Part shown: positions 35,036 through 58,941 of the stretch, piece after piece | How positions within the stretch are numbered: the first letter of the stretch is position 1 | Layout of the letters: every line of letters begins with the position of its first letter | Assembly: GCF_021233055.1 (NCBI RefSeq) | Contig: NZ_CP089538.1 | Coordinates: 4,170,501 to 4,234,500, forward strand | From: Spirosoma oryzicola | Lineage (GTDB): Bacteria; Bacteroidota; Bacteroidia; Cytophagales; Spirosomataceae | Length of the DNA stretch: 64,000 nt | Direction of reading: 5' to 3' | Made by a program: the position numbers and the translations under genes | The notes under the pieces: generated by a model | What the model saw: the letters and a program-made list of their open reading frames with translations, nothing else | What the model was told of the DNA's origin: nothing | Database searches by the model: none

Positions 35036-35070
35036 GTCCTTTAATGTAGGCCATTACTCATTGACTTTTG
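35036..35070 (+). promoter_or_regulatory. Phage promoter P1 (endolysin)
   Basis: GTCCTT box at 35036 and -7 box GACTTTTG at 35063-35070, start-to-start 27 bases. The ATG is 25 bases after the -7 box. Member of a seven-site family. Confidence 0.65.
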
Positions 35071-35095
35071 GTCTGTCAATCAAAATAACAGGCCA

Positions 35096-35542
35096 ATGGC
35101 ATCGCGTTCAATCGAAGATTTGCACCCCGCTCTTGCTTATGCATTCGGTAAAGCAGAAGCACAGTACACCCTTCTTTATCCAGAAGCACCTAAACCAATT
35201 CTGACCAGCACCTACCGCTCGAATGAAGAGCAGCTCAAGCTCTACAATCAGCCCACCGACCGCAAAGACAACGACGGTGATGGCAAGATTGATGAGGCTG
35301 ATGAGAAGGTGACCAATGCAAAGCCCGGCCAGTCGGCTCACAACTTCAGCCCATCGCTGGCGTTTGATGTCGCTTTCCAGGATAAGGCAGGAAAACTTGA
35401 TTGGAGCACCCTGCACTTCCAACGCTTCGCCAAACTGGTTCTGCAGACCGTTGGCATCACCTGGGGTGGTAATTTCAAATCACTCATCGATCTGCCTCAC
35501 TTCGAGCTCACCGACTGGGCAAAACGCGCAGCCAAAAAGTAG
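35096..35542 (+). CDS. M15-family peptidase, endolysin-like, with EF-hand-type loop
   Basis: 148 residues without a signal peptide, as in classic endolysins. M15 (VanY/VanX-like) zinc ligands are visible: His82 in QSAHNF, Asp91 in LAFDV and His135 in LPHFEL. It should cleave a peptide bond in peptidoglycan stems. Residues 58-69 (DNDGDGKIDEAD) fit a 12-residue EF-hand calcium loop, inserted just before the first zinc ligand. The T5 endolysin is a known calcium-activated M15 peptidase, so similar control is plausible. It follows promoter P1 and opens the lysis cluster. Confidence 0.85.
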   Translation: MASRSIEDLHPALAYAFGKAEAQYTLLYPEAPKPILTSTYRSNEEQLKLYNQPTDRKDNDGDGKIDEADEKVTNAKPGQSAHNFSPSLAFDVAFQDKAGKLDWSTLHFQRFAKLVLQTVGITWGGNFKSLIDLPHFELTDWAKRAAKK

Positions 35543-35594
35543 CTGACTAACTAATCTCTTAGTTCAACGTAGCCGGCTAAATCAATTCCAGTCT

Positions 35595-35993
35595 ATGAAG
35601 TATCTCAACATCATTGCGCATTTTCTCCAGGGCACCTATGCCAAGTTTGGCACCAGTGCCAATCTGTTCAGAGAACTAACCGTCAGTGTGCTCACAGCGG
35701 TAGCGGTGGCCGTCCTGGTCGAACTGCTGACACCCGACACAGATTCAACTGCAGCAGAAGTGCGCGACCTGCTCAATGCGGCCATCGCCAACCAGCGTCA
35801 GGCTGATGAGATCAGAGCCAAACAGCAGGAATGGAAACTACAAGGCAAAATCGATTCACTCACTCTTGTACTAAAAAAACGCGATGAACAAGACTCTTTA
35901 CGGGCTAATGGTGGGTTTTCTACTTTGGATGCCATGCGCCAGATCAACAGCGCAATCAATAAAACCGGGCGCGGCCCGGCGAGGGGTAGATAG
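35595..35993 (+). CDS. Membrane protein with coiled coil, inner-spanin-like
   Basis: 132 residues. One membrane helix at about 30-46 (TVSVLTAVAVAVLVELL), then a long polar helix (LLNAAIANQRQADEIRAKQQEWKLQGKIDSL). The layout resembles an i-spanin (Rz-like), and the next gene starts inside it in another frame, as Rz1 does in Rz. There is no sequence motif for spanins, so the call rests on architecture and its place after the endolysin. Confidence 0.5.
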   Translation: MKYLNIIAHFLQGTYAKFGTSANLFRELTVSVLTAVAVAVLVELLTPDTDSTAAEVRDLLNAAIANQRQADEIRAKQQEWKLQGKIDSLTLVLKKRDEQDSLRANGGFSTLDAMRQINSAINKTGRGPARGR

Positions 35994-36300
35994 TGCAGCC
36001 GTTGCGGCTCAGTTTGTGGCCAACGCCAGACCCCTACTCGACAGCCTGACGGCTCTGCACTTTGCCAGGCTAAAGATTAGCTTTTTACAAGGCCAGGTCA
36101 AAGAACGCGAAAGCCAGCGCGATGACCTGGCGGGCCAGCTGAGTGAGTGCCATCAAAACACCGGCCAGCAGATCGGCCACCAGGTTGATGACAAACAGCA
36201 GATCGGCCAGCTGACGCAGCAGAAAAACAGTGGCCAGCTAAAGACCTGGCTACTAGGTGCGGCCCTGGCGTTGTCAATCTATCTGCACGTTGTCCGATGA
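35884..36300 (+). CDS. Exported coiled-coil protein overlapping the previous gene
   Basis: 138 residues, starting 110 bases before the end of the upstream gene in another frame. It has a signal-like N-terminus (MNKTLYGLMVGFLLWMPCARSTAQS), a coiled coil rich in Q (LQGQVKERESQRDDLAGQLSECHQ) and a C-terminal hydrophobic helix (TWLLGAALALSIYLHVV). The Cys before ARS is not a good lipobox, so it is not a standard Rz1 lipoprotein. Probably a lysis or spanin-type component. The overlap region codes in both frames. Confidence 0.55.
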   Translation: MNKTLYGLMVGFLLWMPCARSTAQSIKPGAARRGVDSAAVAAQFVANARPLLDSLTALHFARLKISFLQGQVKERESQRDDLAGQLSECHQNTGQQIGHQVDDKQQIGQLTQQKNSGQLKTWLLGAALALSIYLHVVR

Positions 36301-36542
36301 GCGTCACCGGCTCCTTACTCCAGGCACTCGCAGCCATTGGCATCGGCTTGCTGGTCGGGGCTGCAGTCGACTGGCTCAGGCTTCGAAGATGTCCTTTCAG
36401 TCGGTGCCTGAAGAGCGCAATTTTGGACTATGGGAAAAGTAAAGAGGACCATCAACCGCAGGACCATGTTTGCCGAGATTCACCAGGACACCCGCGAGAA
36501 CGGCAAACCACACGTCTTCAGTCTGAAGTATTGCAAGGTTGA
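36297..36542 (+). CDS. Possible small membrane protein (holin-like), uncertain
   Basis: Coupled to the upstream gene by an ATGA overlap. The first 28 residues form one membrane helix (LLQALAAIGIGLLVGAAVDWL); the remainder runs through phage promoter P2 and into the start of the next gene in another frame, and looks non-coding. It may be a small holin-like peptide or simply a chance frame. Confidence 0.35.
   Translation: MSVTGSLLQALAAIGIGLLVGAAVDWLRLRRCPFSRCLKSAILDYGKSKEDHQPQDHVCRDSPGHPRERQTTRLQSEVLQG
36391..36425 (+). promoter_or_regulatory. Phage promoter P2 (portal operon)
   Basis: GTCCTT at 36391 and CAATTTTG at 36418-36425, 27 bases start to start. The ATG at 36430 is only 4 bases after the -7 box, predicting a transcript with almost no leader. 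Confidence 0.65.
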
Positions 36543-36732
36543 TGCCACCGTTGGCGAAAAAGACCAGGTCTGCAAAAGCGTTCGCAACGCACCAGGTGCG
36601 GCCAAGTTTCGCCAGAACGTCAATCTCAACCACATTCTGCTGCTCCAGAACCTGGAGAATAACACCGTTTTTGAACTACACATTGACCTGCTGCTCGAAT
36701 ACAACGGCATGCGGATAAATCACCAGTACTGA
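36430..36732 (+). CDS. Phage protein before portal, unknown
   Basis: 100 residues, basic N-terminus (MGKVKRTINRRTMF) and a beta-rich body (HVFSLKYCKVDATVGEKDQVC, TVFELHIDLLLEYNGMRI). It starts directly at promoter P2 and ends on the portal start (one-base overlap), so it is the first gene of the portal transcript. No domain recognised. Confidence 0.65.
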   Translation: MGKVKRTINRRTMFAEIHQDTRENGKPHVFSLKYCKVDATVGEKDQVCKSVRNAPGAAKFRQNVNLNHILLLQNLENNTVFELHIDLLLEYNGMRINHQY

Positions 36733-38006
36733 TGGAGTGGATTACTGAACAAGTGGCTTTAGTCACTGGCCGAAACAAGACCGCAGCCATTCTGCAGCTG
36801 ACCGAATCAGCTGGCCGTGACCATGCCTATGGAACGGCCAGCATTTTTGGCGGCAATGGCCTGAGCCACGTACCCTGGGGCAATGCCGACAATCAGCCCA
36901 ACACGATGGGGGTGCTGATTCAAAAAAACAACCAGGTGCGCCCGCTGCTGGAGTCGAACCGCGACATGATCTACGGCACCGGCATCAGCTTTTTTAAGCG
37001 CAAATACGAGCAGAGCAAAGTGCAGCTGGAGCCCTATAGTGACAGCAAACTCGATGAATGGAAGCTAAAGACCCGGCTGGCCAACTACGCCATCGGGGCC
37101 ATCAACGAGCGGCTCACCAACGGCAACCACTTCACCCGCTTTCAGCTGGACTTGGACGGCTTGCCCCTGCTGGACATCATGGACTGCTACAGTTCGCGCA
37201 TCGACCAGAAAAGCACCAAGTTTAACAAGCAGTATCTGTTTAATCCGTATTTCGGTGATCTGAGCTACTACCGGCCCAAAGACTCCGAGCCTTTACCCGG
37301 CTTCAATTTTGCCAATCCTGAAGCCAACATTGTCAGCGTCTTTCACTCTAGAGAGCATATGTCGGGCAACCCCCACTATGCCTATCCAAGCTGGTGGGGT
37401 GCAGCCGACTGGATTGAACTAGCCAACCTGATCCCCATTTTTCACAAGAGCGGGATCACCAACGGCTATAACATCAAGTACCTGGTGCGCGTCCCCAAAG
37501 ATTACTTCGATACCGAGGGCGGCAAGTCGGTACCCGTCGACAAGATTCGCCAGCGGTGGTCTGAGTTTTCCGACAACCTATCGAACTGGATGGCAGGCAC
37601 CAAGAACGTCAACAAGTCGCTCATCTTAAAATACATGCGCGGTGAAGACGGCAAAGCACAGGATGCCATCGACGTGGTCCCGCTCAAAAATGAGATGTCG
37701 GACGATGCCTACTCGAAGGTTTGGGAGATGGCCAACGTTTCTATTGCCAATGCCGCTGGCATCCTGCCCACCCTGGGCGGGGTCAATCCAGGCAAGGGCA
37801 ATGACTCGGGCTCACAGATTAGAGTCATGGCCGAGTTTCAGCAGCATTTCAGAACGCCCGTTCACCATCAGATACTGCTGGAGCCGGTTCAGTACGGGCT
37901 CAAGATCATGGGTTACAAAGACATTGTGCCCTCTTTCTCGGGCGTTCAGATTACTACGCTTGACGTTAACCCGACCGGCTCACAGGCGGTCATCAACCAC
38001 AACTAG
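36732..38006 (+). CDS. Phage portal protein
   Basis: 424 residues, typical size for a portal. The pattern GTASIFGGNGLSHVPWGNADNQPNTMGVLIQKNNQVRPLLESNRDMIYGTGISFF near the N-terminus, the long central helices, and the C-terminal AGILPTLGGVNPGKGNDSGSQIRVMAEFQQHFRTPVHHQILLEPV fit the portal fold. The portal ring is the DNA entry channel at one capsid vertex. It is followed after 2 bases by an adaptor-like gene. Family membership is by overall pattern, so subfamily is not assigned. Confidence 0.75.
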   Translation: MEWITEQVALVTGRNKTAAILQLTESAGRDHAYGTASIFGGNGLSHVPWGNADNQPNTMGVLIQKNNQVRPLLESNRDMIYGTGISFFKRKYEQSKVQLEPYSDSKLDEWKLKTRLANYAIGAINERLTNGNHFTRFQLDLDGLPLLDIMDCYSSRIDQKSTKFNKQYLFNPYFGDLSYYRPKDSEPLPGFNFANPEANIVSVFHSREHMSGNPHYAYPSWWGAADWIELANLIPIFHKSGITNGYNIKYLVRVPKDYFDTEGGKSVPVDKIRQRWSEFSDNLSNWMAGTKNVNKSLILKYMRGEDGKAQDAIDVVPLKNEMSDDAYSKVWEMANVSIANAAGILPTLGGVNPGKGNDSGSQIRVMAEFQQHFRTPVHHQILLEPVQYGLKIMGYKDIVPSFSGVQITTLDVNPTGSQAVINHN

Positions 38007-38008
38007 CC

Positions 38009-38971
38009 ATGCTCAACCAGGAGATTTTAAAAGCGCAGCTGGGCTCGTTGCAGGCGTCGATGAAGTTTGAGCAGATTCAGGGTTTCTGTTTGCATGCCGA
38101 ACGCTGGTTCAGAGACGAGATCGGGCCAGAGCTCTTCGCTTACCTTAAAACGCTTAATGCGGCAACGGTCGACAACCGGGAACTGCTCAGGCTGACGCAT
38201 AGCTGCCTGGCCTGGTATGCCTACACGCTGGCCTTTCCGCACCAGAAATTTCGGGTGGGTGATCTGGGCATGATGAAAAACAGTGCGCAGAACACGGTGG
38301 CGGTCACCAAGTGGGAATACGTCGACACGCGCGATGCCAACCTGTCGATGCTGGATTTGTCGCTTGAATACTTCTGGCGTGAACTGGAGATTCAGAAGCC
38401 AGAAGCCTGGACAGCTTCAGCGGCCTTCAAACTGCGCAACAAGTACTTTCTGCGCTCAGCCGCTGAGCTCGGCCAGCTGCTACCGATTGCGGGCCGCAAC
38501 TACCGTTTCTTTCAGAAGCTCATCACCCACATTGAAGACGTGGAGAATGAGCAGATTCGACCGGCCCTGACGCCAGCGGTCTTTGCTGATTTGAAAAGCA
38601 AATGGCAGAACCCGCAGGCAACTTTGAGCTTTGACGAAGAAATGCTCATCAGTCTGATTCGAAAAGCCCTGGCCTACCTGGCCGTTTACCAGGCGTGGCC
38701 CTATTTGCCGCTCGACATCAACGAAGATGGCATTTCCGAAAAACGCTCCAAGAGCGGTATCAACGAAGGGGTGGCCCCTGACGGCAACCTGCGCGAACGC
38801 ATGCAACAGCAGCTAAATCTGGACGGTGAGAAGAAGCTGGCCAACGTGCGCAGTTATCTTGATGAGACGGCCACCCCGATTCTGTTTGCTTCATACTATC
38901 AGAAGTACCTGACACCAGGCACCGAGTATGAGCCGGACGATTTTACCGACAAACCTCATGTAATCCTTTAA
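38009..38971 (+). CDS. Head-tail adaptor-like virion protein (possibly DUF6712)
   Basis: 320 residues, almost all helical, with two aromatic-rich segments (FEQIQGFCLHAERWFRDEIGPELFAYL, YFWRELEIQKPEAWTASAAF). This resembles the DUF6712-type proteins beside portal genes in Bacteroidota phages, thought to be head-completion or adaptor proteins. The assignment rests on memory of that group and on position directly after portal, so it is tentative. Confidence 0.5.
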   Translation: MLNQEILKAQLGSLQASMKFEQIQGFCLHAERWFRDEIGPELFAYLKTLNAATVDNRELLRLTHSCLAWYAYTLAFPHQKFRVGDLGMMKNSAQNTVAVTKWEYVDTRDANLSMLDLSLEYFWRELEIQKPEAWTASAAFKLRNKYFLRSAAELGQLLPIAGRNYRFFQKLITHIEDVENEQIRPALTPAVFADLKSKWQNPQATLSFDEEMLISLIRKALAYLAVYQAWPYLPLDINEDGISEKRSKSGINEGVAPDGNLRERMQQQLNLDGEKKLANVRSYLDETATPILFASYYQKYLTPGTEYEPDDFTDKPHVIL

Positions 38972-38985
38972 ACAATCCATAAATC

Positions 38986-39180
38986 ATGTTACCAGCAAGC
39001 AACCCACAAGAAGACAAAGTAAGCACCGACGAAGCGGCTCAGGAAATTATGAACCACCTGAGCGAAAGCGGCTACGACCTGAGCGATAAAGTGGCCATCA
39101 GCCGGGCGTTTCGTAAGCTGCTGCGCACCGAGGGTGAAGAAGCGCAGAAGACATTGACCAACCTTTTAGACACGTTGTAA
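38986..39180 (+). CDS. Small acidic phage protein, unknown
   Basis: 64 residues, helical, charged (STDEAAQEIMNHLSESGYDLSDKVAISRAFRKLLRTEGEE). Between the adaptor and a membrane-protein gene, with 3 bases to the next start. Function unknown. Confidence 0.55.
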   Translation: MLPASNPQEDKVSTDEAAQEIMNHLSESGYDLSDKVAISRAFRKLLRTEGEEAQKTLTNLLDTL

Positions 39181-39183
39181 TTA

Positions 39184-39900
39184 ATGGATTTCAAACGCAA
39201 AAAAGCGGATGACCAGCGGGCTGCCAGTGAGCAGCCTGCTGGCAACGAGGGAAACGGATTGCCAACGGATGCTATGCTTAAACAGATGGCAGCAGCGGCC
39301 TGGTCAGCGACAGCAAACAATGATCCTGAAGCAGTCAACGAACCCGCACCAAAGTCGGTGATCACAGTAGTTGATCGAGCCACTGGCCAGGTAATCGGAG
39401 AAAGCGAACCCCTACCGATCTACGAACCAGAACCAGCACTAAAATCGGGATTCTTAGCCCGCGTACTGGCCAGCCTGGTTCGATGGCTGAACCAGTCCCG
39501 CTACCTGCTGAGCCTGTACGGTGGGCTGGCCGTTGCCTTTGTGGCTTTCTACGCCCTGGCTGATTATACCGCTTATACCACCGCTGAGCAGCGGCCTGGT
39601 CAGCTGATCTTTTCCAACACGATGACTCAGCTTTGGACGGCCTGTTTCCGGCTTGTCTTTATCCTGGGGGCCAGCCTGGCACTGCTGCGTTTGTTCTGGC
39701 CTGAGTTGTTCCGCTTTTTCAGACCCGACAACCAAAACGGGTCCAGCCTGGATGGGCCAGACATGATGACCACCATCAAACACGAGTTAACGTCCTACCA
39801 ACGGTTATGCGTCTTCTTGTTAGCCTTCTTTGGGCTCTGTCTTTTGTTTATAGCCCTGCTGCTGGTCAATCTACCGCAGACAGTAAGCGTCGGTCGGTAG
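39184..39900 (+). CDS. Phage membrane protein, unknown
   Basis: 238 residues. The N-terminal 95 residues are charged and soluble; three hydrophobic segments follow (LLSLYGGLAVAFVAFYALADY, LWTACFRLVFILGASLALL, LCVFLLAFFGLCLLFIALLLV). The gene end overlaps the next gene by 94 bases in another frame. It may act with the exported wall enzyme that follows, but no family is recognised. Confidence 0.6.
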   Translation: MDFKRKKADDQRAASEQPAGNEGNGLPTDAMLKQMAAAAWSATANNDPEAVNEPAPKSVITVVDRATGQVIGESEPLPIYEPEPALKSGFLARVLASLVRWLNQSRYLLSLYGGLAVAFVAFYALADYTAYTTAEQRPGQLIFSNTMTQLWTACFRLVFILGASLALLRLFWPELFRFFRPDNQNGSSLDGPDMMTTIKHELTSYQRLCVFLLAFFGLCLLFIALLLVNLPQTVSVGR

Positions 39901-40370
39901 TCGACCAGCGCAAAGCCGTCACCCAGGCTGCAGTTCGCTACGTGGGTGTTAAGGAAGAGGGCCAGAACCGGGGGCCAGTCTACACCCTGTTTATGAAGCC
40001 TTATGGCTACGGACCCGGCACGATGTATTGCGGGCTGTTCTGCCATCACGTCTTTGTTACGGCCAGCGTCAAACACGGGGTCAAAGGGCCAGCCATTGCC
40101 GCCAACTGGTCACTACCCGCCAGCGTCATCGTCTGGCGCAACAACCGGCCCATAAACGGGCGGGTGCCGCTGGCGGGTGATCTGGCCTTGTTTCGCTTTA
40201 AAAGCAAGCGCATCAATCACGTCGAAGTAATTGTCAACTGGCCGAGCAATGAAAACTACTGCTGGGTGATCGGGGGCAACACCTCCAACCCCAACGGATC
40301 GGGTGAAGGCGTCTTTTTGAAGCAGCGACTAAAAAGCGAAATGATCGTTGTCAGCCGCATCACTTTTTAA
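39807..40370 (+). CDS. Exported CHAP/NlpC-P60-like peptidoglycan hydrolase
   Basis: 187 residues with a signal peptide (MRLLVSLLWALSFVYSPAAG). The catalytic pattern is a Cys-His pair: Cys75 in GTMYCGLFC and the His in RINHVEVIV, followed by GGNTSNPNGSGEGVF, the usual ending of phage CHAP-type amidases. It should hydrolyse peptidoglycan from the periplasm. The first 94 bases lie inside the upstream membrane gene. It is a second wall-degrading enzyme next to the M15 and glucosaminidase genes. Confidence 0.78.
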   Translation: MRLLVSLLWALSFVYSPAAGQSTADSKRRSVVDQRKAVTQAAVRYVGVKEEGQNRGPVYTLFMKPYGYGPGTMYCGLFCHHVFVTASVKHGVKGPAIAANWSLPASVIVWRNNRPINGRVPLAGDLALFRFKSKRINHVEVIVNWPSNENYCWVIGGNTSNPNGSGEGVFLKQRLKSEMIVVSRITF

Positions 40371-40380
40371 ACCGTAACGT

Positions 40381-40815
40381 ATGAAACAACCCATTCACCT
40401 TTATGTGCTGGCGGGCCTGCTGGTGGGCCTGCTGGCTCTGGTGGCCGCTCGGCCCTGGGGCCAGCTTAATGATGCCGTTGGCATTGAGTCGGTAGCCGAT
40501 TCGATTCGGGCCGACACGCTCTCACGGGCCGAAACCGATAGCCTGATTATCGATACGGAAGCGGTAACGATGACCTTACCCAACGCCATCAGCGACAGTC
40601 TGAGCTACAGCTTTGAAGCCCGTAAAAAGAAAAAAGCCTATCTGGAGGAACAGAACGCCCTGCTGCAAAAGGAAAACCAGCAGCTTGAAACCAAGCTCAA
40701 CAAAAAGCGGCAATCACTGATGCAGAATCTGGTGTCACTCCAGGAGGTTGAGCAGCTGCTGGTCAAGCAGAACGGCTCAGCCAGTAAAATCGTGACCAGT
40801 CCCGAAAACCCCTGA
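40381..40815 (+). CDS. Membrane-anchored coiled-coil protein
   Basis: 144 residues. One N-terminal membrane helix (LYVLAGLLVGLLALVAARPW), then a polar segment and a coiled coil (KKKAYLEEQNALLQKENQQLETKLNKKRQSLMQNL). The architecture again suits a spanin-type protein crossing the periplasm. It lies between two wall hydrolases. No sequence family recognised. Confidence 0.55.
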   Translation: MKQPIHLYVLAGLLVGLLALVAARPWGQLNDAVGIESVADSIRADTLSRAETDSLIIDTEAVTMTLPNAISDSLSYSFEARKKKKAYLEEQNALLQKENQQLETKLNKKRQSLMQNLVSLQEVEQLLVKQNGSASKIVTSPENP

Positions 40816-40877
40816 CGGCCCCAACGAAGAGCAGGCGGGCTGAGCGATTAGTCCGACGTTGGGGCGATCCTGTTCGA

Positions 40878-41225
40878 ATGATCACCGAGACCGAGCTGCT
40901 TTACCCTGAAACAGCGGTCGCCATTGCAGTGCTGGAGACGGGAAACTTTAGCTCACGGCACATGATGAAAACCCACAACTGGTTTGGATTCCGACGCAAC
41001 AGCCGGGGCTATCAAAAGTGCGTTCGCAAGGGCTACGGTGAGTATGCCAGCGCACAAATGATGATGGCCGATTACCAGGCTTGGGAATACGACATTTGCA
41101 CCAAAAATGGCCTGACCGATGAGCGGGCGTTCCGTCGATGGATTGTCAAGCACTACGCTGAAGACCCGGCATATAGTACCAAGCTGAGCACCTCACTGGC
41201 CGAAGTAAATCGCACCTGGCGATAA
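40878..41225 (+). CDS. Glucosaminidase-family wall hydrolase
   Basis: 115 residues matching the glucosaminidase fold: ETAVAIAVLETGNFSSRHMMKTHNWFGFRR with the catalytic Glu in LETG, YASAQMMMADYQAWEYDI, and AFRRWIVKHYAEDPAYSTKL. It should cut glycan strands. The frame is open with protein-like content (RAERLVRRWGDPVR) for about 28 codons upstream without ATG, GTG or TTG, so the true protein may be longer, from an unusual start or a start lost by mutation. A terminator follows 3 bases after the stop region. Confidence 0.8.
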   Translation: MITETELLYPETAVAIAVLETGNFSSRHMMKTHNWFGFRRNSRGYQKCVRKGYGEYASAQMMMADYQAWEYDICTKNGLTDERAFRRWIVKHYAEDPAYSTKLSTSLAEVNRTWR

Positions 41226-41230
41226 TAGAA

Positions 41231-41256
41231 AACCGTCCTTTAGGGGGCGGTTTTTT
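41231..41256 (+). terminator. Terminator after the glucosaminidase gene
   Basis: AACCGTCC (41231-41238) pairs with GGGCGGTT (41245-41252, including one G-T pair), followed by T to 41256. Confidence 0.8.
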
Positions 41257-41306
41257 GGTTTGTACTTGCTCACCATTTCACAAACCAAACACAAACTCTA
41301 TTTCTC

Positions 41307-41576
41307 ATGTCAAACCTGCAAGACGAGCTCAGCCTGACCGAGCGGCTGACGGCTCCCACGCCCAAACTCTTTCAGAAGATTCGCAACGGTGGCATCATCC
41401 TGGCCACGTTCGCAGCGGCCATCCTGAGCCTGGAGGCCAAAGGGGTGATCGTACCAAGCGGCATCGAAATGGTAGCCAGTGGCATTGCTACCGTCGCGGG
41501 CATCATTGGTGCCCTGGTGGCACAGTTCACCGTCAATCTGCCTGAGTACGAAATTAAGAAAGCTCTCAATTCCTAA
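41307..41576 (+). CDS. Holin-like two-helix membrane protein
   Basis: 89 residues with two hydrophobic segments (IILATFAAAILSLEA and MVASGIATVAGIIGALVAQFTV), a polar N-terminus and charged C-terminus. This fits a class II holin, which would form the membrane lesion that releases or activates lysis enzymes. It follows the wall-hydrolase group and ends on the start of the next gene (one-base overlap). Confidence 0.6.
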   Translation: MSNLQDELSLTERLTAPTPKLFQKIRNGGIILATFAAAILSLEAKGVIVPSGIEMVASGIATVAGIIGALVAQFTVNLPEYEIKKALNS

Positions 41577-42445
41577 TGCGCATCATCACCTTAGATGGCA
41601 TTGATTACGAGCTACCCGAAGCCTGGGACGAGGTAAACCAAGAACGACTACCTAATCTGATCGAGCTGGTTTACCTCACCCCGGAGTCGGGTCAAATGCA
41701 TCATGCTCTCATTCAGCTGGCTCTCAACATTCGCCCGCGCGTTTGGAAGAAGCTCCACAAAACCCATTTTTCACCCGATCTGCCCGACTCGGTACGCTAT
41801 GCGAATGCCGAAGTACTCGGCCAGCTGGTGGCCTGGCTGTCGTGGATGTGGCTCAAGCCGATGAACAAGCCACCCTTTGCGCAGCTGCAGGTTGATGGCC
41901 ATGCTTGGCTGCTGGCTGAGCCTGACTTTATGTCGATGTCATACGGTGAGCTCACTGATTTGTACATTCACCTGCAGGCGTTCGTTGAGCAGCTGGTGCC
42001 GGGTGAAGAGCGGCTCAATTACCTGGTGGCAACCGCTTGCCGACCCCGACCGAAACGGGGTTACACCCTGCAGCCTGGCTGGAACGGTGACCACCGCGAA
42101 GAGTACAACGAGTTTCTGGTGCGGGAGCGGGTGAAGCTGGCCGCTAAAATCGATTACCGTGACCGGCTGGCCGTCATGCTGTACGTGGCCGCTACCATCA
42201 AGAACCTGATGAACCGTTACGCGCTCTTTGAGAGCGAATCGACGAGCACCGCTTCAGATGCCCTGCCTGAAGCCTACTCAGGTCAGAGCTTTATCAAGAA
42301 CGCGCACCTGCTGGCCGAAAAAGGTATTTTCGGCAACCTCAAACAAACGCAGCAGGCCAACGTGCACGAAGTACTGCTTTTCCTGGAAGAACACCGCAAT
42401 GATTTACTCAAACAGCAAGCCGATGCAAACAAAGACAGCGACTAA
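41576..42445 (+). CDS. Phage protein, unknown (tail-assembly region)
   Basis: 289 residues, soluble, helical with many W and L (NVHEVLLFLEEHRNDLL at the C-terminus, LGQLVAWLSWMWLKPMNKPPF at about 82). No recognised domain. Its end overlaps the next gene by 23 bases. Position between the holin-like gene and tail proteins would suit a tail assembly chaperone, but I see no slippery site in the overlap. Confidence 0.6.
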   Translation: MRIITLDGIDYELPEAWDEVNQERLPNLIELVYLTPESGQMHHALIQLALNIRPRVWKKLHKTHFSPDLPDSVRYANAEVLGQLVAWLSWMWLKPMNKPPFAQLQVDGHAWLLAEPDFMSMSYGELTDLYIHLQAFVEQLVPGEERLNYLVATACRPRPKRGYTLQPGWNGDHREEYNEFLVRERVKLAAKIDYRDRLAVMLYVAATIKNLMNRYALFESESTSTASDALPEAYSGQSFIKNAHLLAEKGIFGNLKQTQQANVHEVLLFLEEHRNDLLKQQADANKDSD

Positions 42446-42905: not shown

Positions 42906-42910
42906 CCTGT

Positions 42911-43126
42911 ATGCTGCGCAAAAAACTACTCTTCTGGCTTACCTGGCTGCTACTGGGGCCGCTGGCCATGCTGTATTTCTGTTTCATGGCACTGTTCACG
43001 GGCCGCTTTCGCTCGATTGGCTTAAAAACAAGCCTGGTACGTCAACAGGTTTGGCAGAAGCATGTGCTGGAGAAACCCGTCAAGCGACTCACCGTCGACC
43101 GTTACGGCAAAAAGCGTTTCTCGTAG
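42911..43126 (+). CDS. Small membrane protein, unknown
   Basis: 71 residues. The first 30 residues form a membrane segment (LLFWLTWLLLGPLAMLYFCFMALF), followed by a basic tail (VRQQVWQKHVLEKPVKRL). It starts 5 bases after the previous stop. An overlapping frame at 42877 is less plausible. Function unknown. Confidence 0.5.
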   Translation: MLRKKLLFWLTWLLLGPLAMLYFCFMALFTGRFRSIGLKTSLVRQQVWQKHVLEKPVKRLTVDRYGKKRFS

Positions 43127-43128
43127 CT

Positions 43129-43163
43129 GTCCTTTTGGCCGTTGGTGCGCCAGGCAATCTTTG
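43129..43163 (+). promoter_or_regulatory. Phage promoter P3 (tail protein operon)
   Basis: GTCCTT at 43129 and AATCTTTG at 43156-43163, 27 bases start to start. The ATG at 43181 is 17 bases after the -7 box. Confidence 0.6.
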
Positions 43164-43180
43164 GTAAAATACTTTTTGCC

Positions 43181-47308: not shown

Positions 47309-47323
47309 ATCAATATCATTCAC

Positions 47324-47355: not shown

Positions 47356-47357
47356 GT

Positions 47358-47392
47358 GTCCTTCCAGCTTGCCAAATGCCTGTTCACTTTCG
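47358..47392 (+). promoter_or_regulatory. Phage promoter P4 (tape measure operon)
   Basis: GTCCTT at 47358 and CACTTTCG at 47385-47392, 27 bases start to start, right after a terminator. The preferred ATG at 47397 is 4 bases after the -7 box. Confidence 0.65.
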
Positions 47393-47396
47393 TAGC

Positions 47397-47978
47397 ATGG
47401 CAGAATCAGGCAGCTATTCAGGCGGCATGCGCGGGGACGCGCGGGCCACCTGGCTCACCACCAACCGCGATGCAGCAAAGGTACTCGACGGCTATACCAT
47501 CAAGGCGGTTGAGCTCTTCAAACAACGTATTCAGCAGGCGGGTCTCGTGCTCACCCAGGACATGCTCAACTCCTTTCGAGTCTTCGCGGCTGAAGAAGGA
47601 GAGGGTTTTGTGCAGGCCCGCATTCAGATGTCGGCACTGGTCCGCATTGCCGACATGCAAAACCTTAATTATCCCCGTACCCCACCACTGGCGGCATTAG
47701 AGCGATTTGTCGAGCTCACTGGCCTGGGCAAGTTTGCCAGAATACCCGGCTACCCGACTGCGCACCTGGTGCGGCCCGCATCCGACACGGCAGCCATCGA
47801 GCGCATTGCCTGGGGCATCAAGGTCAACCGCATGCATTACCCCAACGTTAAGCGGGGTTATCGGGGCGTCTATTCCGACCCCTTGCTGAAGGACGTTCTG
47901 CCCTACCTGTTCAAAGACCTTTTCGAAGCAGCCCAACTGACGGCCATGCGCGGTTTCAAACTCCTTTTTAACGACTAA
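47397..47978 (+). CDS. Phage tail-region protein upstream of tape measure
   Basis: 193 residues from MAESGSYSGGM. An in-frame ATG at 47376 lies inside promoter P4 and is rejected. Helical N-terminal half (TIKAVELFKQRIQQAGLVLTQDMLNSF), then a basic RVNRMHYPNVKRGYRGVY region. Placed just before the tape measure gene, it may be a tail completion or chaperone protein, but no domain is recognised. Confidence 0.65.
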   Translation: MAESGSYSGGMRGDARATWLTTNRDAAKVLDGYTIKAVELFKQRIQQAGLVLTQDMLNSFRVFAAEEGEGFVQARIQMSALVRIADMQNLNYPRTPPLAALERFVELTGLGKFARIPGYPTAHLVRPASDTAAIERIAWGIKVNRMHYPNVKRGYRGVYSDPLLKDVLPYLFKDLFEAAQLTAMRGFKLLFND

Positions 47979-47979
47979 T

Positions 47980-53544: not shown

Positions 53545-53682
53545 TCGGGCCAGTGAACGGAGAATGTTTAACACTAGCTTTATTGAGTATAAACATTTGG
53601 TGGAGAGTAATTATCTTTATGGTTGCCCTCCACCTGCGTTTATCATGTAGCTTTTACTGACCATTATTACCTTCAACATTAA
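53545..53682. promoter_or_regulatory. Gap with an inverted repeat and host-like -7 box
   Basis: AATGTTTA (53563-53570) is inverted as TAAACATT (53590-53597). AACATTTG (53592-53599) matches TAnnTTTG in 7 of 8 positions and could start the gene at 53683. Confidence 0.35.
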
Positions 53683-54165
53683 ATGCTCAAACGTCTAACG
53701 TTAACCGTACCAAAGTACTTAAAGAAGTTTTTAGAGGGTGAATTCGAAGCGCAGGCGGGCATCTTACACGTCGAAAAGTGGAGCGAGATCGGTTCATTGA
53801 TGAATTTGGTGTCTCGCTCCTATCCTTTCCCGATGAGCGTCGAGAAACCCAGTGGCACCACCGTCATCATCAGCTACTATTGCCGGGAGAAAAGTTACGA
53901 GGTACCACCCGACAAAATCCCAGGGTTGACCAGGCAGCTGGACGAGATTTTTCGGCGGTCGCTGATCTGCGAAGTGCGCAAAGTACACGAGTTAGCGGGG
54001 GGCAATTACGGTCCCTACGTGCGCACATTCCTGGAGCGATACGGCATCGAAGCCGACGTTGACGTTGACTTCGAGACCATGCGCAAGGTGTATCGGGACT
54101 ATTTAGCCCGCAATGGCCGAAAAAATGGAAAAAATTTATGCGTAAAAAGTCCGGTTTTGAACTAA
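53683..54165 (+). CDS. Unknown protein preceding 20-bp repeats
   Basis: 160 residues, basic and mixed alpha/beta (MLKRLTLTVPKYLKKFLEGEFEAQAG, SYEVPPDKIPGLTRQLDEIFRRSL, and a basic C-terminus VYRDYLARNGRKNGKN). Its last codons run through the first of four 20-base repeats. It may be a DNA-binding protein acting at these repeats. I recall similar proteins in Bacteroidota mobile elements, but cannot name a family. Confidence 0.6.
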   Translation: MLKRLTLTVPKYLKKFLEGEFEAQAGILHVEKWSEIGSLMNLVSRSYPFPMSVEKPSGTTVIISYYCREKSYEVPPDKIPGLTRQLDEIFRRSLICEVRKVHELAGGNYGPYVRTFLERYGIEADVDVDFETMRKVYRDYLARNGRKNGKNLCVKSPVLN

Positions 54166-54220
54166 AAAGTCCGGCTTTTACCTGAAATGTCCGGCTCGTG
54201 CGTAAAAAGTCCGGCAAAAA
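54143..54220. repeat. Four in-phase 20-bp iterons
   Basis: AAAAAGTCCGG occurs at 54144, 54164 and 54204, and the variant GAAATGTCCGG at 54184, so the spacing is exactly 20 bases, about two helix turns. It lies between the end of an ORF and a terminator, just upstream of promoter P5. Confidence 0.7.
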
Positions 54221-54222
54221 AA

Positions 54223-54251
54223 GGCTCTGGCGATGCGTCAGAGCCTTTTTT
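54223..54251 (+). terminator. Terminator after the iterons
   Basis: GGCTCTGGCG (54223-54232) pairs with CGTCAGAGCC (54236-54245), with a G-T pair, followed by T to 54251. Confidence 0.85.
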
Positions 54252-54275
54252 CATAAAAATCGGCTACGAAATTCA

Positions 54276-54310
54276 GTCCTTTTGGACGGGGTTTATGGGG
54301 TCTACTTTTG
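54276..54310 (+). promoter_or_regulatory. Phage promoter P5 (tail fibre operon)
   Basis: GTCCTT at 54276 and TACTTTTG at 54303-54310, a full match to TAnnTTTG, 27 bases start to start. The ATG at 54315 is 4 bases after the -7 box. Confidence 0.7.
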
Positions 54311-54314
54311 GGTT

Positions 54315-54881
54315 ATGACCATTACCGAACAAGTCTTTGGCCTGCAACCAGGTGAACCCAATGCGGGCTACGTTCGTGCCCTTTGGCTGCTACGTGCAGC
54401 CGACGTGCTGAACGTGCTCAGCCCGCAGGAGTTGCCCGTTGCGGGCCAGCCGCTGACGGTCAGCAAGGCGGGGCTGCTGGTGCGGACGGGGGCCATGCTG
54501 AGCCGCATCAAACCCATGACCAAGACGGCCACCTTTGAAGAGCCTGGCGACACCGAAGCAGCGGGCTCTGTCTACGCACCCCAGCTGCAGATACCCATGC
54601 CCAAACCATCACCGGCCTTCGATCAGTACTTGAGCCGGTACGCAGCCACCCGATGGGTGGTGTTTTGGGTCGACTACAACGGCCAGGGCTGGCTTGCCGG
54701 AGAGCCCGACAACGGCCTGCGCTTAACCACCAGCCGACTGCAGGGAGCCACCAACGGGCTGTTGCTAACGTTTACGGGTCGGAGTTACCACCCGGCCTGG
54801 CGGCTGGAAAGCACCGAGCCTGAAGTACTGTTTGTTAATTCCGCTTTTGATTTTGGTTTCAACCTTTCTTTTGATTCATAA
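54315..54881 (+). CDS. Tail-region protein, unknown
   Basis: 188 residues from MTITEQVFGLQPGEPN. The frame is open 39 codons upstream but runs through a terminator, so that part is not translated. Beta-rich at the C-terminus (WVVFWVDYNGQGWLAGEPDNGLRL, then TFTGRSYHPAWRLEST). It is the first gene of the fibre operon and may join the fibre to the tail tip. Confidence 0.6.
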   Translation: MTITEQVFGLQPGEPNAGYVRALWLLRAADVLNVLSPQELPVAGQPLTVSKAGLLVRTGAMLSRIKPMTKTATFEEPGDTEAAGSVYAPQLQIPMPKPSPAFDQYLSRYAATRWVVFWVDYNGQGWLAGEPDNGLRLTTSRLQGATNGLLLTFTGRSYHPAWRLESTEPEVLFVNSAFDFGFNLSFDS

Positions 54882-54883
54882 GT

Positions 54884-56065
54884 ATGCCTTTAGATTCCGC
54901 TCCAATTGAAAGCCAGATTGACGCGGCTTTCCCCGACAATGCCTCGCGCGAGATCAAGCCGTCAGGTATTCGGGTTTTCTTGAAAACGCTGGTGCGCTGG
55001 GTGCGCGATGCCGTCAATAATAATTTAGGCACCTGGAACAAAGTCAGCGACGGCCAGCCAGGCGGGGCCAACGGGGATAGCGTCTACCGACTGGGCAAGA
55101 CGATCTTTGGCCGCAACACCGAAGATGGCAGCGGGGCTACCCTGCAGGCCAACACGGCCAATTTTGGTTCACTCAATGGCCTGCCCGCAGGCCAGTACTT
55201 TGTTGTCACCAACCCGGCTGAGCCAAACGTACCGGCCACGCGGTTTTATGCGTTTGCCGAACTGCCAGCCGCAACGGGCGGCACCTACGACTTCATTGAC
55301 CTGACGCTTTGGGCCAAGCCCTGGGACGGTAGCTCAGGCGGGCATTTCGAGCTCAATCTATACGCGGCCAACCGGGGCGGCTTTCGCTTTCGCTATACGA
55401 CGGAAGGCGACATGGATAATGTCGGTATTGTGGCCTACCAGCAGGCCGATGGCCGCACCATTCTGTACGTGCAATCAGATAACGCATTTCGGGCCATTAC
55501 CCTGCGCGTCAACAGCCACGTTATGGCCGTCTGTTATAGCGCATTTACCCTGACGGCTAATCTGACCGGCTCGCTGGTGCTCAATACGCTCAATCCGACC
55601 AGTTACCGACCCCTGCAAGCCCTACGATCTCGTTTTACGACGTTCCCCGTCAGTAACTCAGACGGTGCCCTGCCCCCTGTACTCATCAGCGAAGCGGGGG
55701 CGGGTCATCTGAGTTTGGGGGCAAACTACGTCTCGGGGGCCAGTGACATGGCCTTTATTAGCTCCAACGTGGCGGGGTCGGGGTTTTCCTTCTGGCAGCT
55801 GCTCATTGAAAACGGATCGACCGTAAAAAAGCTACTGGCCTATTTGAATAATCGGGGATGGCTGGCTTTGGGCCTGAGCAATGCCACCTCGATGCTGCAC
55901 CTCAAAGCCGCCAACGGTTACCAGCAGTTACGTCTGGAAACCAAGTATACCCCCTATGGCCCTGGCGACCCCAACGGGGAAGTCGGCCAGGTGGCCTGGG
56001 ATGACACCTGGTTCTATCTCAAAACAGCAGCGGGCTGGCGTCGACTGCAGCTGCAATCCTGGTAA
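54884..56065 (+). CDS. Tail fibre-like protein
   Basis: 393 residues. The N-terminus (APIESQIDAAFPDNASREIKPSGIRVFLKTLVRWVRDAV) is the attachment-type helix common in Bacteroidota phage fibres; the rest is beta-rich, repeated in short GxxxG strand pairs, ending in GEVGQVAWDDTWFYLKTAAGWRRLQL, a pattern seen in collar and fibre tips. It follows the previous gene after 2 bases. Receptor specificity unknown. Confidence 0.72.
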   Translation: MPLDSAPIESQIDAAFPDNASREIKPSGIRVFLKTLVRWVRDAVNNNLGTWNKVSDGQPGGANGDSVYRLGKTIFGRNTEDGSGATLQANTANFGSLNGLPAGQYFVVTNPAEPNVPATRFYAFAELPAATGGTYDFIDLTLWAKPWDGSSGGHFELNLYAANRGGFRFRYTTEGDMDNVGIVAYQQADGRTILYVQSDNAFRAITLRVNSHVMAVCYSAFTLTANLTGSLVLNTLNPTSYRPLQALRSRFTTFPVSNSDGALPPVLISEAGAGHLSLGANYVSGASDMAFISSNVAGSGFSFWQLLIENGSTVKKLLAYLNNRGWLALGLSNATSMLHLKAANGYQQLRLETKYTPYGPGDPNGEVGQVAWDDTWFYLKTAAGWRRLQLQSW

Positions 56066-56104
56066 TTTTTATTTTATCTCTCAACCGTCTTTTTCTTTCT
56101 ACCA

Positions 56105-56551
56105 ATGGACACAATCAAAACCCCGATTTCAGTCGAACCCGTCACCAACTTCAGCCGCATTGCGCAGCACGAAAACTTTATTATCGGCCCTGATTTGAAC
56201 ATGGTGCAGCAGGTGCGCGTCATTACCGTCGACGCGAGTGGCCAGCCGCTCACCGAGCGCATTCAGGCTGATCCGACGCTGACCACCAACCAACAGCAGG
56301 CGGGCATGCAACGGTATGCCGACCAGATCATTACCCGCCAGACGATGGGGGCGTTTGTCGATGCAACCGGCCAGGTGGTAGCTGAAGGCACTGAGGGTGC
56401 CATGCCCCAACGCGACTACTTTCAGGGCATCACCCTGGGTGATCTCAAAAAGAAAGGGCTCACCGTCACCGACAGAACACCGTTTGCCTCGCTGCTATAT
56501 GCCCTGCTGACGAGTGAAATTCTCAACATCGACGCCCGCAGCGGATTATGA
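56105..56551 (+). CDS. Tail-region protein, unknown
   Basis: 148 residues, no membrane segment, with TIKTPISVEPVTNFSRIAQHENFIIGP and a C-terminal LTSEILNIDARSGL. The next gene overlaps its stop by 4 bases. Probably a fibre-associated or assembly protein. No family recognised. Confidence 0.55.
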   Translation: MDTIKTPISVEPVTNFSRIAQHENFIIGPDLNMVQQVRVITVDASGQPLTERIQADPTLTTNQQQAGMQRYADQIITRQTMGAFVDATGQVVAEGTEGAMPQRDYFQGITLGDLKKKGLTVTDRTPFASLLYALLTSEILNIDARSGL

Positions 56552-56931
56552 GCCAGCAGCCGATTGTCGTTCGCTACAAAGAAGACGACCCGAAGGCAGA
56601 TCGGTGGGTATTGGTCCAATCCGTTACGTTTATGACCAAAGCGGGCAAGGTGACGGTGCCTCGTGGCTATACGACCGACTTTGCCTCGGTGCCCATGCTG
56701 CTTTGGGGCTTTTTCCCGCCAATCGGGCGGCACAACCGGGCCACCCTGCTGCATGACTGGTGGTATGACAACCGGCTATTTGAAGAAGTCGTTGGCCAAA
56801 GACAAGCCAGGCGGCTGGCTGATGAGCAGCTGTACGAGCAGCTGAAGGCTGTTGAACCCCGCAAGCCCATTCGTAACTACTGCATGTACTTGGCTTGCCG
56901 CTGGTTCGGTCACCGCTGGTGGGTGAACTAA
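56548..56931 (+). CDS. DUF1353 family phage protein
   Basis: 127 residues. The pattern VTVPRGYTTDFASVPMLLW with PPIGRHNRATLLHDWWY is the DUF1353 signature, found near phage tail genes, often together with fibres. The conserved Thr-Asp and His-Asp residues hint at a hydrolase-like site, but no activity is established. Overlaps the preceding gene by 4 bases; a terminator follows. Confidence 0.85.
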   Translation: MSQQPIVVRYKEDDPKADRWVLVQSVTFMTKAGKVTVPRGYTTDFASVPMLLWGFFPPIGRHNRATLLHDWWYDNRLFEEVVGQRQARRLADEQLYEQLKAVEPRKPIRNYCMYLACRWFGHRWWVN

Positions 56932-56938
56932 GCCCGCT

Positions 56939-56970
56939 AAAAGGCTCCTGGATAACCGGGAGCCTTTTTT
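56939..56970 (+). terminator. Terminator after the DUF1353 gene
   Basis: AAAAGGCTCC pairs with GGAGCCTTTT (arms at 56939-56948 and 56959-56968, T to 56970). Promoter P6 starts 5 bases later. Confidence 0.85.
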
Positions 56971-56974
56971 GTGC

Positions 56975-57009
56975 GTCCTTTCGGGTGGCTGCAGGCTGAG
57001 CCAGTTTTG
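56975..57009 (+). promoter_or_regulatory. Phage promoter P6
   Basis: GTCCTT at 56975 and CAGTTTTG at 57002-57009, 27 bases start to start. The ATG at 57022 follows 12 bases after the -7 box. Confidence 0.65.
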
Positions 57010-57021
57010 CGTACCAATTTA

Positions 57022-57369
57022 ATGAATCAGCCTATGACTCAGCAGGATTTAACCGCACCCATCGACCGCGTCAAAGTCAGCAGGAGCGAACAGTTCGCCA
57101 GGGCGTACCAGGTCTTTTCCGATGAGACCACCGAGCAGGATTTGACCGACTACCGCTTCAGTGCCGAGCTCAGCAACAACCAGGGCATGCTGCTGGCCTT
57201 ATCCGAAACGTCGGGCATCAGCCGACCGGCTCTCAACAGCGTCGTGGTGACGCTGAACACCATCCGCATGGGTGAACTGGCAACGGGGGCTTACACGCTG
57301 CTGCTGTACGGGGTACGCGATGACGAGCGGGAAATTTTCGTGCAACTCTTAATGCAGGTCGAACCGTGA
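57022..57369 (+). CDS. Phage protein, unknown
   Basis: 115 residues from the ATG at 57022; a GTG at 56971 lies before promoter P6 and is rejected. Beta-rich with FSAELSNNQGMLLALSET and GAYTLLLYGVRDDEREIFVQLLMQ. Coupled to the next gene, whose GTG start overlaps its stop. Likely a small tail-fibre associated protein. Confidence 0.6.
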   Translation: MNQPMTQQDLTAPIDRVKVSRSEQFARAYQVFSDETTEQDLTDYRFSAELSNNQGMLLALSETSGISRPALNSVVVTLNTIRMGELATGAYTLLLYGVRDDEREIFVQLLMQVEP

Positions 57370-57581
57370 ACGTCATCAAAGTCATCCGACCAGCCCGCAA
57401 CGAGCCCGTGAAGCTCATTCGCACCGGACCCGTCACGGTGCAGCTGGTGCGCTCAGCGGTGCCACCCGTTCAGCTGATCAACCAGAAAGGCGTTGTCATT
57501 TTCGGGGGCAGCACCCAGGCCAGTCAGATCACCACCAAGACCGACTTTGCCGCTTTATACAATCTCAAAAAACAATTTTAA
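57366..57581 (+). CDS. Small phage protein, unknown
   Basis: 71 residues starting at GTG (57366), overlapping the previous stop by 4 bases. Contains VKLIRTGPVTVQLVRSAVPPVQLI, a short beta strand pattern. Likely a fibre accessory peptide; function unknown. Confidence 0.5.
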   Translation: MNVIKVIRPARNEPVKLIRTGPVTVQLVRSAVPPVQLINQKGVVIFGGSTQASQITTKTDFAALYNLKKQF

Positions 57582-57593
57582 TTTTTATAAACC

Positions 57594-58088
57594 ATGTTAG
57601 AACAGGAGTTAAAAGACTTAGTAGACCTACTCGCTGGCGATTACAAAGCCATCATTGGTATGATCGGCAATTTGAGTGCGTTACCTGCTGACATCACCAA
57701 AACCAGCCTGGTAGCTGCGCTGACCTCGCTCAATACCAAGATCGCCAATGCTGCGGGCATCAACGATGCAGTCAAAGCGGCAAACTCGACCTGGAGCTCG
57801 AACAAGATTCAGGGCAGCATCGATGCAGCTGTTGCGGCTCTGGTCAACGGGGCACCAGCGGCCCTGGACACCTTGAAAGAACTGGCTGATCAAATGGCCG
57901 CTGACGCCAGCGTACTTGACAGCATTGCGGTGGCCCTGGGCAAACGGGTGCGCGTCGATCAGGCGCAGACCTTTACGACGACCGAGCAGCAGCAGGCTAG
58001 AGACAACATCGGGGCGGCAAGCAAAGCCGACATCGGCAACCCGAGCTTTGATTTTGCGGCTTACTACACGCAGAAAAAATCAGCTTAA
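57594..58088 (+). CDS. Tail fibre protein
   Basis: 164 residues. The central stretch (VNGAPAALDTLKELADQMAAD, then SVLDSIAVALGKRVRVD) is widely shared by phage tail fibres, with QTFTTTEQQQARDNIGA, the fibre shaft motif. It should form part of the distal fibre and sits directly before the discoidin-type gene, with a one-base overlap. Confidence 0.82.
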   Translation: MLEQELKDLVDLLAGDYKAIIGMIGNLSALPADITKTSLVAALTSLNTKIANAAGINDAVKAANSTWSSNKIQGSIDAAVAALVNGAPAALDTLKELADQMAADASVLDSIAVALGKRVRVDQAQTFTTTEQQQARDNIGAASKADIGNPSFDFAAYYTQKKSA

Positions 58089-58864
58089 TGGCTTGGTACG
58101 ATCAACTCATTTCCGACCTAAAGGCGTTTGCCACTGCCGTGGTCACGGATGTCAACAGCCTGCGACCCCGGCTGTTACCCGCTGGTGGGACGGCTGGCCA
58201 GGTACTCGCTAAATCGAGCAGTACGGACTATGCTACCGGATGGGTAACGCCCGCCAGCGGTGGGGTGGCCTTCACGACGGTGTTTAATTACCCGGCTCTG
58301 GTGGCCCTGGGCACCCCGTCGACGCTCACCTTTGTGTTGGTCAGCCAGGACAATAAGACCAACACCTTTAACGCCAACTATCTGCTGTGGCCCAACGGGG
58401 TCAGACGGCTGCTGACCAGCACCTCGGACAATGCACCCATTGATTACAGCAGTATGGGCAGCGTTATTCACGATGGTGGCGGGGTGTTTTCGGGCGATAC
58501 CACCCGAACCCCTGACAAGGTCTTCGACGGCAACGCGCAGACCTTCTACGATGCGGCCAATGGGGATGCGGGCAAGTACGTCGGGCGCAACCTGGTAGCC
58601 CCTAAAACGCTCAACAAGATTAGCTTTATCCCCCGGCCTGACAGCTACTACGGCACCAAGATCAATACGGGTCAATTCCAGTATTCGACCGATGGGGCAA
58701 GCTGGACAACGGTTTACACCGTATCGGGGGTTGACAGTAACAACTACACTCAAACCTTCAGCTTCACCTTCGCGCCCGTCACGGCTCAGTACTGGCGGCT
58801 CTACTGGCCCGGTACCGAATCCTTTGGCAACGTGGCCGAGATTCAGCTGCTGTATTCCTACTAA
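58088..58864 (+). CDS. Tail fibre tip with F5/8-type C (discoidin-like) domain
   Basis: 258 residues. The N-terminus carries a short fibre motif (LPAGGTAGQVLAKSS). Residues about 130-258 look like an F5/8 type C (CBM32-like) domain: DKVFDGNAQTFYDA, LNKISFIPRPDSYY, FQYSTDGASWTTVYT and YWRLYWPGTESFGNVAEIQL. Such domains bind carbohydrates, so this is the best candidate for the receptor-binding protein of the phage. It follows the fibre gene with a one-base overlap. Confidence 0.75.
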   Translation: MAWYDQLISDLKAFATAVVTDVNSLRPRLLPAGGTAGQVLAKSSSTDYATGWVTPASGGVAFTTVFNYPALVALGTPSTLTFVLVSQDNKTNTFNANYLLWPNGVRRLLTSTSDNAPIDYSSMGSVIHDGGGVFSGDTTRTPDKVFDGNAQTFYDAANGDAGKYVGRNLVAPKTLNKISFIPRPDSYYGTKINTGQFQYSTDGASWTTVYTVSGVDSNNYTQTFSFTFAPVTAQYWRLYWPGTESFGNVAEIQLLYSY

Positions 58865-58873
58865 CCAACCAAG

Positions 58874-58905
58874 AGCCCGCCAGCCGTCAGCAGCGGGCTT
58901 TTTTT
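58874..58905 (+). terminator. Terminator after the fibre tip gene
   Basis: AGCCCGC (58874-58880) pairs with GCGGGCT (58893-58899), with T to 58905. Promoter P7 begins 2 bases later. Confidence 0.85.
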
Positions 58906-58906
58906 G

Positions 58907-58941
58907 GTCCTTTCCTGACGGTAGTTGCCTGCTGACTTTCG
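58907..58941 (+). promoter_or_regulatory. Phage promoter P7 (capsid operon)
   Basis: GTCCTT at 58907 and GACTTTCG at 58934-58941, 27 bases start to start. It shares TGCCTG at the same offset with P4. The ATG at 58965 is 23 bases after the -7 box. Confidence 0.65.

Follow-up and report, generated by a model that had tools for sequence, protein, structure and literature searches.

The stretch of Spirosoma oryzicola DNA considered here (NCBI RefSeq assembly GCF_021233055.1, contig NZ_CP089538.1, positions 4,170,501 to 4,234,500 of the forward strand; all 64,000 nucleotides are referred to as the window) carries a prophage in which early genes reach to 33.9 kb and late genes begin with an endolysin gene at 35096 (PHROGs). 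The late region contains a portal gene (36732, recognised by its 22-27% identity with named portal proteins), a tape measure gene (47980, PHROGs), genes for a tail assembly chaperone and a tail-fibre-like protein, and a head maturation protease gene (58965), with the terminase gene just beyond the end of the window. Our subject is a set of seven sites in this region, each made up of a GTCCTT box and, at a fixed distance downstream of it, a second box resembling the -7 element of Bacteroidota promoters (Table 1). They are probably the late promoters of a temperate tailed phage, at which the host sigma factor would read the -7 element and a phage protein would read the GTCCTT box.

Table 1. Window coordinates of the predicted late promoters and of two early genes of the prophage
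Feature	Extent	Upstream box	-7 box	Strand	Remarks
Predicted late promoter 1		GTCCTTT 35036-35042	GACTTTTG 35063-35070	+	Endolysin ATG 35096 (PHROGs); homologous site before endolysin in relatives
Predicted late promoter 2	36391..36432	GTCCTTT 36391-36397	CAATTTTG 36418-36425	+	ATG 36430 = position 39, predicted leaderless; heads portal block
Predicted late promoter 3		GTCCTTT 43129-43135	AATCTTTG 43156-43163	+	ATG 43181
Predicted late promoter 4	47358..47399	GTCCTTC 47358-47364	CACTTTCG 47385-47392	+	ATG 47397 = position 39, predicted leaderless; heads tape-measure block
Predicted late promoter 5	54276..54317	GTCCTTT 54276-54282	TACTTTTG 54303-54310	+	ATG 54315 = position 39, predicted leaderless; box-to-ATG distance kept across host family
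Predicted late promoter 6		GTCCTTT 56975-56981	CAGTTTTG 57002-57009	+	ATG 57022; no homologous site among the 55
Predicted late promoter 7		GTCCTTT 58907-58913	GACTTTCG 58934-58941	+	Head maturation protease ATG 58965
Candidate box-reading factor of this phage group	32609..32959			+	Small early gene, 116 aa; candidate through early-gene conservation and co-location
Repressor-like gene	28647-29171			-	PHROGs and Pfam helix-turn-helix matches

Numbering the first base (G) of the GTCCTT box as 0, the -7 box occupies positions 27-34. On re-reading of the sequence, the coordinates, GTCCTT boxes and octamers given for the seven sites in an initial annotation were all exact, as was its statement that A at 28 and G at 34 occur in all seven; T at 31 and T at 32 are likewise constant (7/7). 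The longer box GTCCTTT that it had proposed holds in six sites, the seventh (47358) reading GTCCTTC, and every site does precede a gene start, with the start codons refined to those of Table 1. The window contains 20 GTCCTT words (12 on the plus strand and 8 on the minus strand), seven of which carry.A..TT[TC]G at +27, and these seven are all on the plus strand between 35 and 59 kb, which is the late strand of a single prophage. The binomial chance of such a result is 1.4e-14, or 4.2e-13 after multiplication by 31 spacings. Another plus-strand GTCCTT within the prophage, at 41235, is not followed by a second box. When up to two mismatches in GTCCTTT are allowed, four more fits appear (30128, 30794, 63654 on the minus strand and 14319 on the minus strand), the first two overlapping early open reading frames; all four are taken as chance. 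The paired sites head blocks with endolysin, portal, tape measure, tail, head-protease and terminase genes, and the same pattern stands before homologous late genes in related prophages, in keeping with the late regulon that the initial annotation had envisaged.

The related prophages were reached through a protein search with the protease, which gave matches in 35 of 36 genomes of the genus (many of them weak; the protease query had no match when run against genome contigs and viral contigs). Regions were fetched around 18 matches and, together with the window's own prophage, these 19 regions were scanned for GTCCTT-N21-.A..TT.G. There are 55 paired sites in 13 of the 19, every one on the phage strand; in the spacing histogram of that strand the other values between 14 and 29 have 0-2 pairs apiece, against 55 at 21, and on the opposite strand there are no pairs at spacing 21. 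Most core prophages have five to seven sites, which precede the endolysin, 36430, 43181, 47397, 54315 and protease families and, in relatives, two further families; the 57022 site has no counterpart there. GTCCT alone gives 71 such pairs on the phage strand against one on the other, some of the extra 16 lying inside genes. The spacers between the two boxes have diverged, which suggests that the pair is kept by selection.

Host DNA gives a very different picture. Fifty-three 20-kb pieces, taken from part of one contig and adding up to 1.06 Mb of the 7.33-Mb genome, contain 316 GTCCTT words. A -7 box stands at the exact spacing after just one of these, and any other spacing between 14 and 29 gives 0-2 pairs, so the exact spacing is not enriched. 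Phage specificity, which had been staked on this check of host density, stands for the 1.06 Mb covered (1/316), and a regulon of the host itself is rejected on the lack of excess there.

How far do the sites resemble ordinary promoters of these bacteria? The Bacteroidota primary sigma factor uses the elements TTTG (-33) and TAnnTTTG (-7) (PMC6847099). The A at 28, T at 31 and 32 and G at 34 are present in 55/55 sites, but were part of the search pattern. Among columns outside the selection, position 33 is C or T in all 55 sites and position 30 in 50, A is never found at 26, and A stands at 39 (the predicted +1) in 37; upstream, T at 6 and C or T at 7 each occur in 50/55 and G at 13 in 39/55, and positions -6 to -4 are A or T in most sites. 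The first base of the -7 box is C or G in 45/55 and T in just 8/55, so that the likeness to TAnnTTTG noted at the outset is sound for the core (A, TT and G) and fails for the first base. The upstream part does differ from TTTG, as had been claimed: a G follows TTT in none of the seven window sites and in one of the 55 (at position 7). The TTT of GTCCTTT falls where the TTT of the usual TTTG would stand; the conserved core of the box in sister phages is GTCC, not TTT. Compared with the primary-sigma promoters described (PMC6847099), then, the sites are alike in the -7 element and in its predicted distance from the start, and differ in that GTCCTT at a fixed distance replaces TTTG and in the mostly C or G first base of the -7 element.

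We read these sites as a late-promoter class of Bacteroidota phages that keeps half of a host promoter, the other half being a phage-specific word. The host primary sigma factor would read the -7 element, as NANNTTYG, and the GTCCTTT box, roughly at -39 to -33, would occupy the place at which region 4 of sigma contacts the -33 element; most likely, a phage-encoded protein would read the box and so replace the region 4 contact. If a phage protein takes over that contact, the late genes would be transcribed only after the protein is made. The arrangement would work like the middle promoters of phage T4, where the -10 element stays and the -35 element gives way to a MotA box (PMC6755090), and it may be placed among phage promoters in which half of a host promoter is retained. 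The likeness to the MotA- and AsiA-dependent promoters, as far as that source describes them, is one of sequence geometry only (a phage box for the upstream element, with a -10 type element of the host kept); the sigma factor and the box are different, the box here would be at about -36 rather than -30, and the genes served are late, not middle. No relative of MotA or AsiA was identified here, no search by those names having been made.

Where transcription would begin can be predicted from Flavobacterium johnsoniae, in which the G of the -7 element is at -5 and starts lie 4-5 bases past the element (PMC6847099). By this rule the +1 would be at position 39, five bases after the last base of the -7 box. 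Among the 50 sites with an assigned gene, the ATG is at 39 in 14, at 38 in three and at 40 in one (18/50 at 38-40), at 42-47 in six, and at 52-72 in 26. Where the ATG coincides with the predicted start the messages should be leaderless, as would be the case for the late messages from 36391, 47358 and 54276, where the start would be the A of the ATG; from the predicted starts, we infer that about a third of these late messages lack a leader. In F. johnsoniae, leaders of more than 10 bases are found in 87% of predicted transcripts (PMC6847099).

The 26 sites with longer leaders show a further feature. In nine of them, all in relatives (L058, L067, L073, L076, L079, L088, L091, L092 and L098), the -7 box and the start are covered by a strong hairpin (z -3.8 to -6.9) that stops short of the ATG and has the promoter in its 5' arm. 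The mean hairpin z is -2.3 for the 26 leader sites and -0.7 for the 24 others, and the leader sites of the window are weak in this respect (z -2.2 at 35036, -1.3 at 43129 and -1.0 at 58907); a count of at least six hairpin pairs across the start separates the two groups poorly (22/26 leader sites against 15/24 others). By eye, the protease sites of Porphyromonas phage027a and phage032a also lie inside an inverted repeat, with arms of 11-12 bases. RNA from the promoter itself would start past the 5' arm, and so could not form the hairpin. In this the nine sites recall the late promoters of T4 gene e, likewise nested in a hairpin, which there is inhibitory and silences read-through messages (PMC3014915); they differ from what that source describes in that a number of their stems run into T tracts and could be terminators, and in the weakness of the hairpins at the window's own sites. 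T runs in fact follow most of the nine stems, and fit a terminator equally well.

Further afield, the 54315 gene family is present in 45 of 200 host-family genomes. The exact pair stands directly before the 54315 homologue at 19 of the 30 loci returned, and GTCC lies 38-43 bases before the ATG at 25 of the 29 loci with an assigned ATG, some of the -7 boxes being one base off (two more, L125 and L131, also fit; L120, L127 and L128 do not). In the G005 and G006 prophages (L120 and L127) four GTCCAA words at 21-base steps precede the 54315-family gene, and at L245 and L250 four GTCC words precede it at 20-21-base steps; overall, these stepped arrays have three or four GTCC[AC]A words per locus, at 20-21-base steps, in place of a single box. 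The 54315 protein had no match in the named phages.

Some named phages carry the pair. In Cellulophaga phage Ingeline_1, two of eight GTCCTTT words have a -7 box (corrected chance 0.0077), one at 33403 before the protease gene and one at 38833 before gp47; the former (L258) predicts a protease ATG at 33461, 45 bases in frame ahead of the annotated start at 33506. Porphyromonas phage027a and phage032a, which are related to one another, have 3/7 and 3/6 boxes paired, the first in each directly before the prohead protease gene. Flavobacterium phage laban6-1 has none of the GTCCTT pairs; four of its nine GTCACA words (L578: 32736, 30994, 26973 and 10121, on the minus strand, which is the late strand) have a -7 box at the same distance, with none at other spacings from 16 to 26, and these precede the holin, protease, gp34 and tape measure genes. 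GTCACA came to light when six phages were screened for hexamers shared upstream of -7 boxes, so the extent of that search is not fully reflected in its p-value. Among the matches listed for IMG/VR, 26/120 stretches with GTCCTTT-N20-TACTTTTG have a second site of the same spacing on the same strand, compared with 0/120 of those listed for N18, and 1/77 for N22. This second-site test does separate the spacings, for which the raw numbers of matches listed are uninformative.

Who, then, reads the box? A pair that is not in excess in host DNA, and whose word varies with the phage while its position stays fixed, suggests a phage factor, and favours the inference that a phage-encoded activator serves the late regulon, as the initial annotation had surmised. 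The alternative that best survives is that the phages borrow their reader of the box from the host, as either an alternative sigma factor or a host activator. One GTCCTTT geometry in phages of three Bacteroidota host classes, with no phage protein found in common, is what such borrowing would give; yet the pair is not in excess in the host DNA, and the words differ from phage to phage at the same place (GTCACA in laban6-1, GTCCTA in sister Spirosoma prophages), and we regard a borrowed host reader as unlikely. Less likely again, to the point of being improbable, is that these are ordinary primary-sigma promoters, the box being an inherited -33 variant that needs no extra factor: the host type of the -7 element and the position of TTT at -33 are both as this would have it, but the box is invariant and its distance rigid (55 at 21 against 0-2 elsewhere), the host shows no excess, TTT is lost in the GTCCTA, GTCCTG and GTCACA forms, and the -33 motif of F. 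johnsoniae is itself described as hardly evident (PMC6847099). It is very improbable that the box serves to load a late antiterminator resembling Q of phage lambda, instead of being an initiation element; the hairpins and T runs at some relatives' sites are something that an antiterminator could answer, but the rigid distance to the -7 box fits an initiation contact, and each phage has several separate sites (most core prophages have five to seven) rather than one late operon. Chance or an artefact of the search, for which it may be said that the motif was first picked by eye and that the later pattern was derived from the same sites, is effectively ruled out by the corrected binomial probability, the host control, the spacing histogram with its control spacings, the opposite strand, independent prophages and a second prophage of the same genome.

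For the phage-encoded reader favoured here, one candidate can be put forward. The family of the 32609 gene (Table 1) is the only early one besides the repressor to be present in all nine core prophages with the early region covered; members also occur in G019, with its two sites, and in two regions that lack a GTCCTT site, G027a and G020. When loci of the host family are compared, 22 of 28 in the GTCCTT class have a 32609 homologue on their contig no more than 45 kb away, against seven of 23 others (Fisher p 7.4e-4). The comparison uses 51 matches out of 63, the other 12 having been set aside for want of an assigned class or because the copy was partial or broken; classes were entered by hand, relatedness was not corrected for and draft contigs were scored as absent. 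In three GTCCTT-class cases the homologue is on the opposite strand. The predicted fold has two beta-alpha-alpha units and gives the impression of a tandem ribbon-helix-helix protein, and no such chain is among the fold matches listed. The 32609 protein is a possible, if rather doubtful, reader of the box in this phage group. As the sole reader everywhere it is ruled out by its non-detection in named phages, IMG/VR stretches and class-level genomes: there is no detection in 27 IMG/VR stretches, most with at least two sites, each of which holds part of a phage; matches in just two of 295 class-level genomes, one of them with four stops; and none in six order-level genomes, including that of L223. 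The LuxR-like regulator of Flavobacteriia phages was also considered and rejected, having just weak matches in G005 and G006 (E 0.0012 and 0.01).

Several observations weigh against late promoters read by a phage protein. Promoter activity, start sites, the phage factor and its action are predicted from the DNA sequence, and no single protein turned up that all phages with the box share. The 32609 protein was not detected in Ingeline_1, Leef_1, 6H, laban6-1, FCL-2 or Porphyromonas phage027a, nor by profile alignment among proteins chosen from Ingeline_1 and phage027a, and it has no Pfam match above the curated cut-off, no sequence match in the PDB and no clear fold match. Within the genus, six of the 19 regions lack a GTCCTT site: in four of these (G032a, G032c, G027a and G002) GTCCTA or GTCCTG takes its place at that spacing, and the remaining two (G027c and G020) have neither GTCCTT nor these forms. 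The prophages share descent, so the 55 sites are not independent. Among order-level loci outside the host family the pair was found at one of 15 (L223), and scans of Leef_1, 6H and FCL-2 gave no paired sites. In IMG/VR, the occurrence of an ATG 2-9 bases past the box separates spacings poorly (28/120 for N20 and 12/120 for N18, both among the matches listed, and 14/77 for N22).

It is quite possible, and we propose it tentatively, that promoters of this kind are widespread in temperate phages of Bacteroidota, as a rigid frame (a box, about 20 bases and a host -7 element) in which box and phage reader are exchanged together. The words GTCCTT, GTCCTA, GTCCTG and GTCACA, and the 21-base GTCC[AC]A repeats, would then be each phage's own late-gene code, set upon the unusual RNA polymerase of the host. 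No description of this promoter class was found in the openly licensed PubMed Central literature, judged mostly by title and the opening of the abstract; late-gene timing in Bacteroidota phages seems little described, with nothing on it found in that literature. With a motif so rigid and simple, the late operons of such prophages and their true start codons could be recognised in the sequence, and there would be one more instance of a phage redirecting the polymerase of its host, here with the divergent sigma factor of Bacteroidota; looking for the protein that reads the box also becomes a direct test.

Finally, we draw attention to some other features of the prophage and its surroundings. No attachment-site repeat was found in 27500-28700, the one stretch searched. 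A tRNA-like Rfam match (30862-30962, plus strand, 41.6 bits) was not reported by ARAGORN. Between the early and late genes, on the minus strand, is a gene with a Schlafen AlbA_2 domain (33920-34996), which has no PADLOC match and is 64% identical to a gene of the G019 prophage. To the right of the terminase gene lies a Septu-type PtuA ATPase gene (L005:2206-3432, genome C1:4236606-4237832; PADLOC E 6.8e-124), apparently prophage cargo. Elsewhere in the same genome, a stretch at about 2.54-2.62 Mb (G000:C1) has more related prophage genes, with proteases at 2583628 and 2540422, and carries GTCCTTT, GTCCTAT and GTCCTAG boxes.

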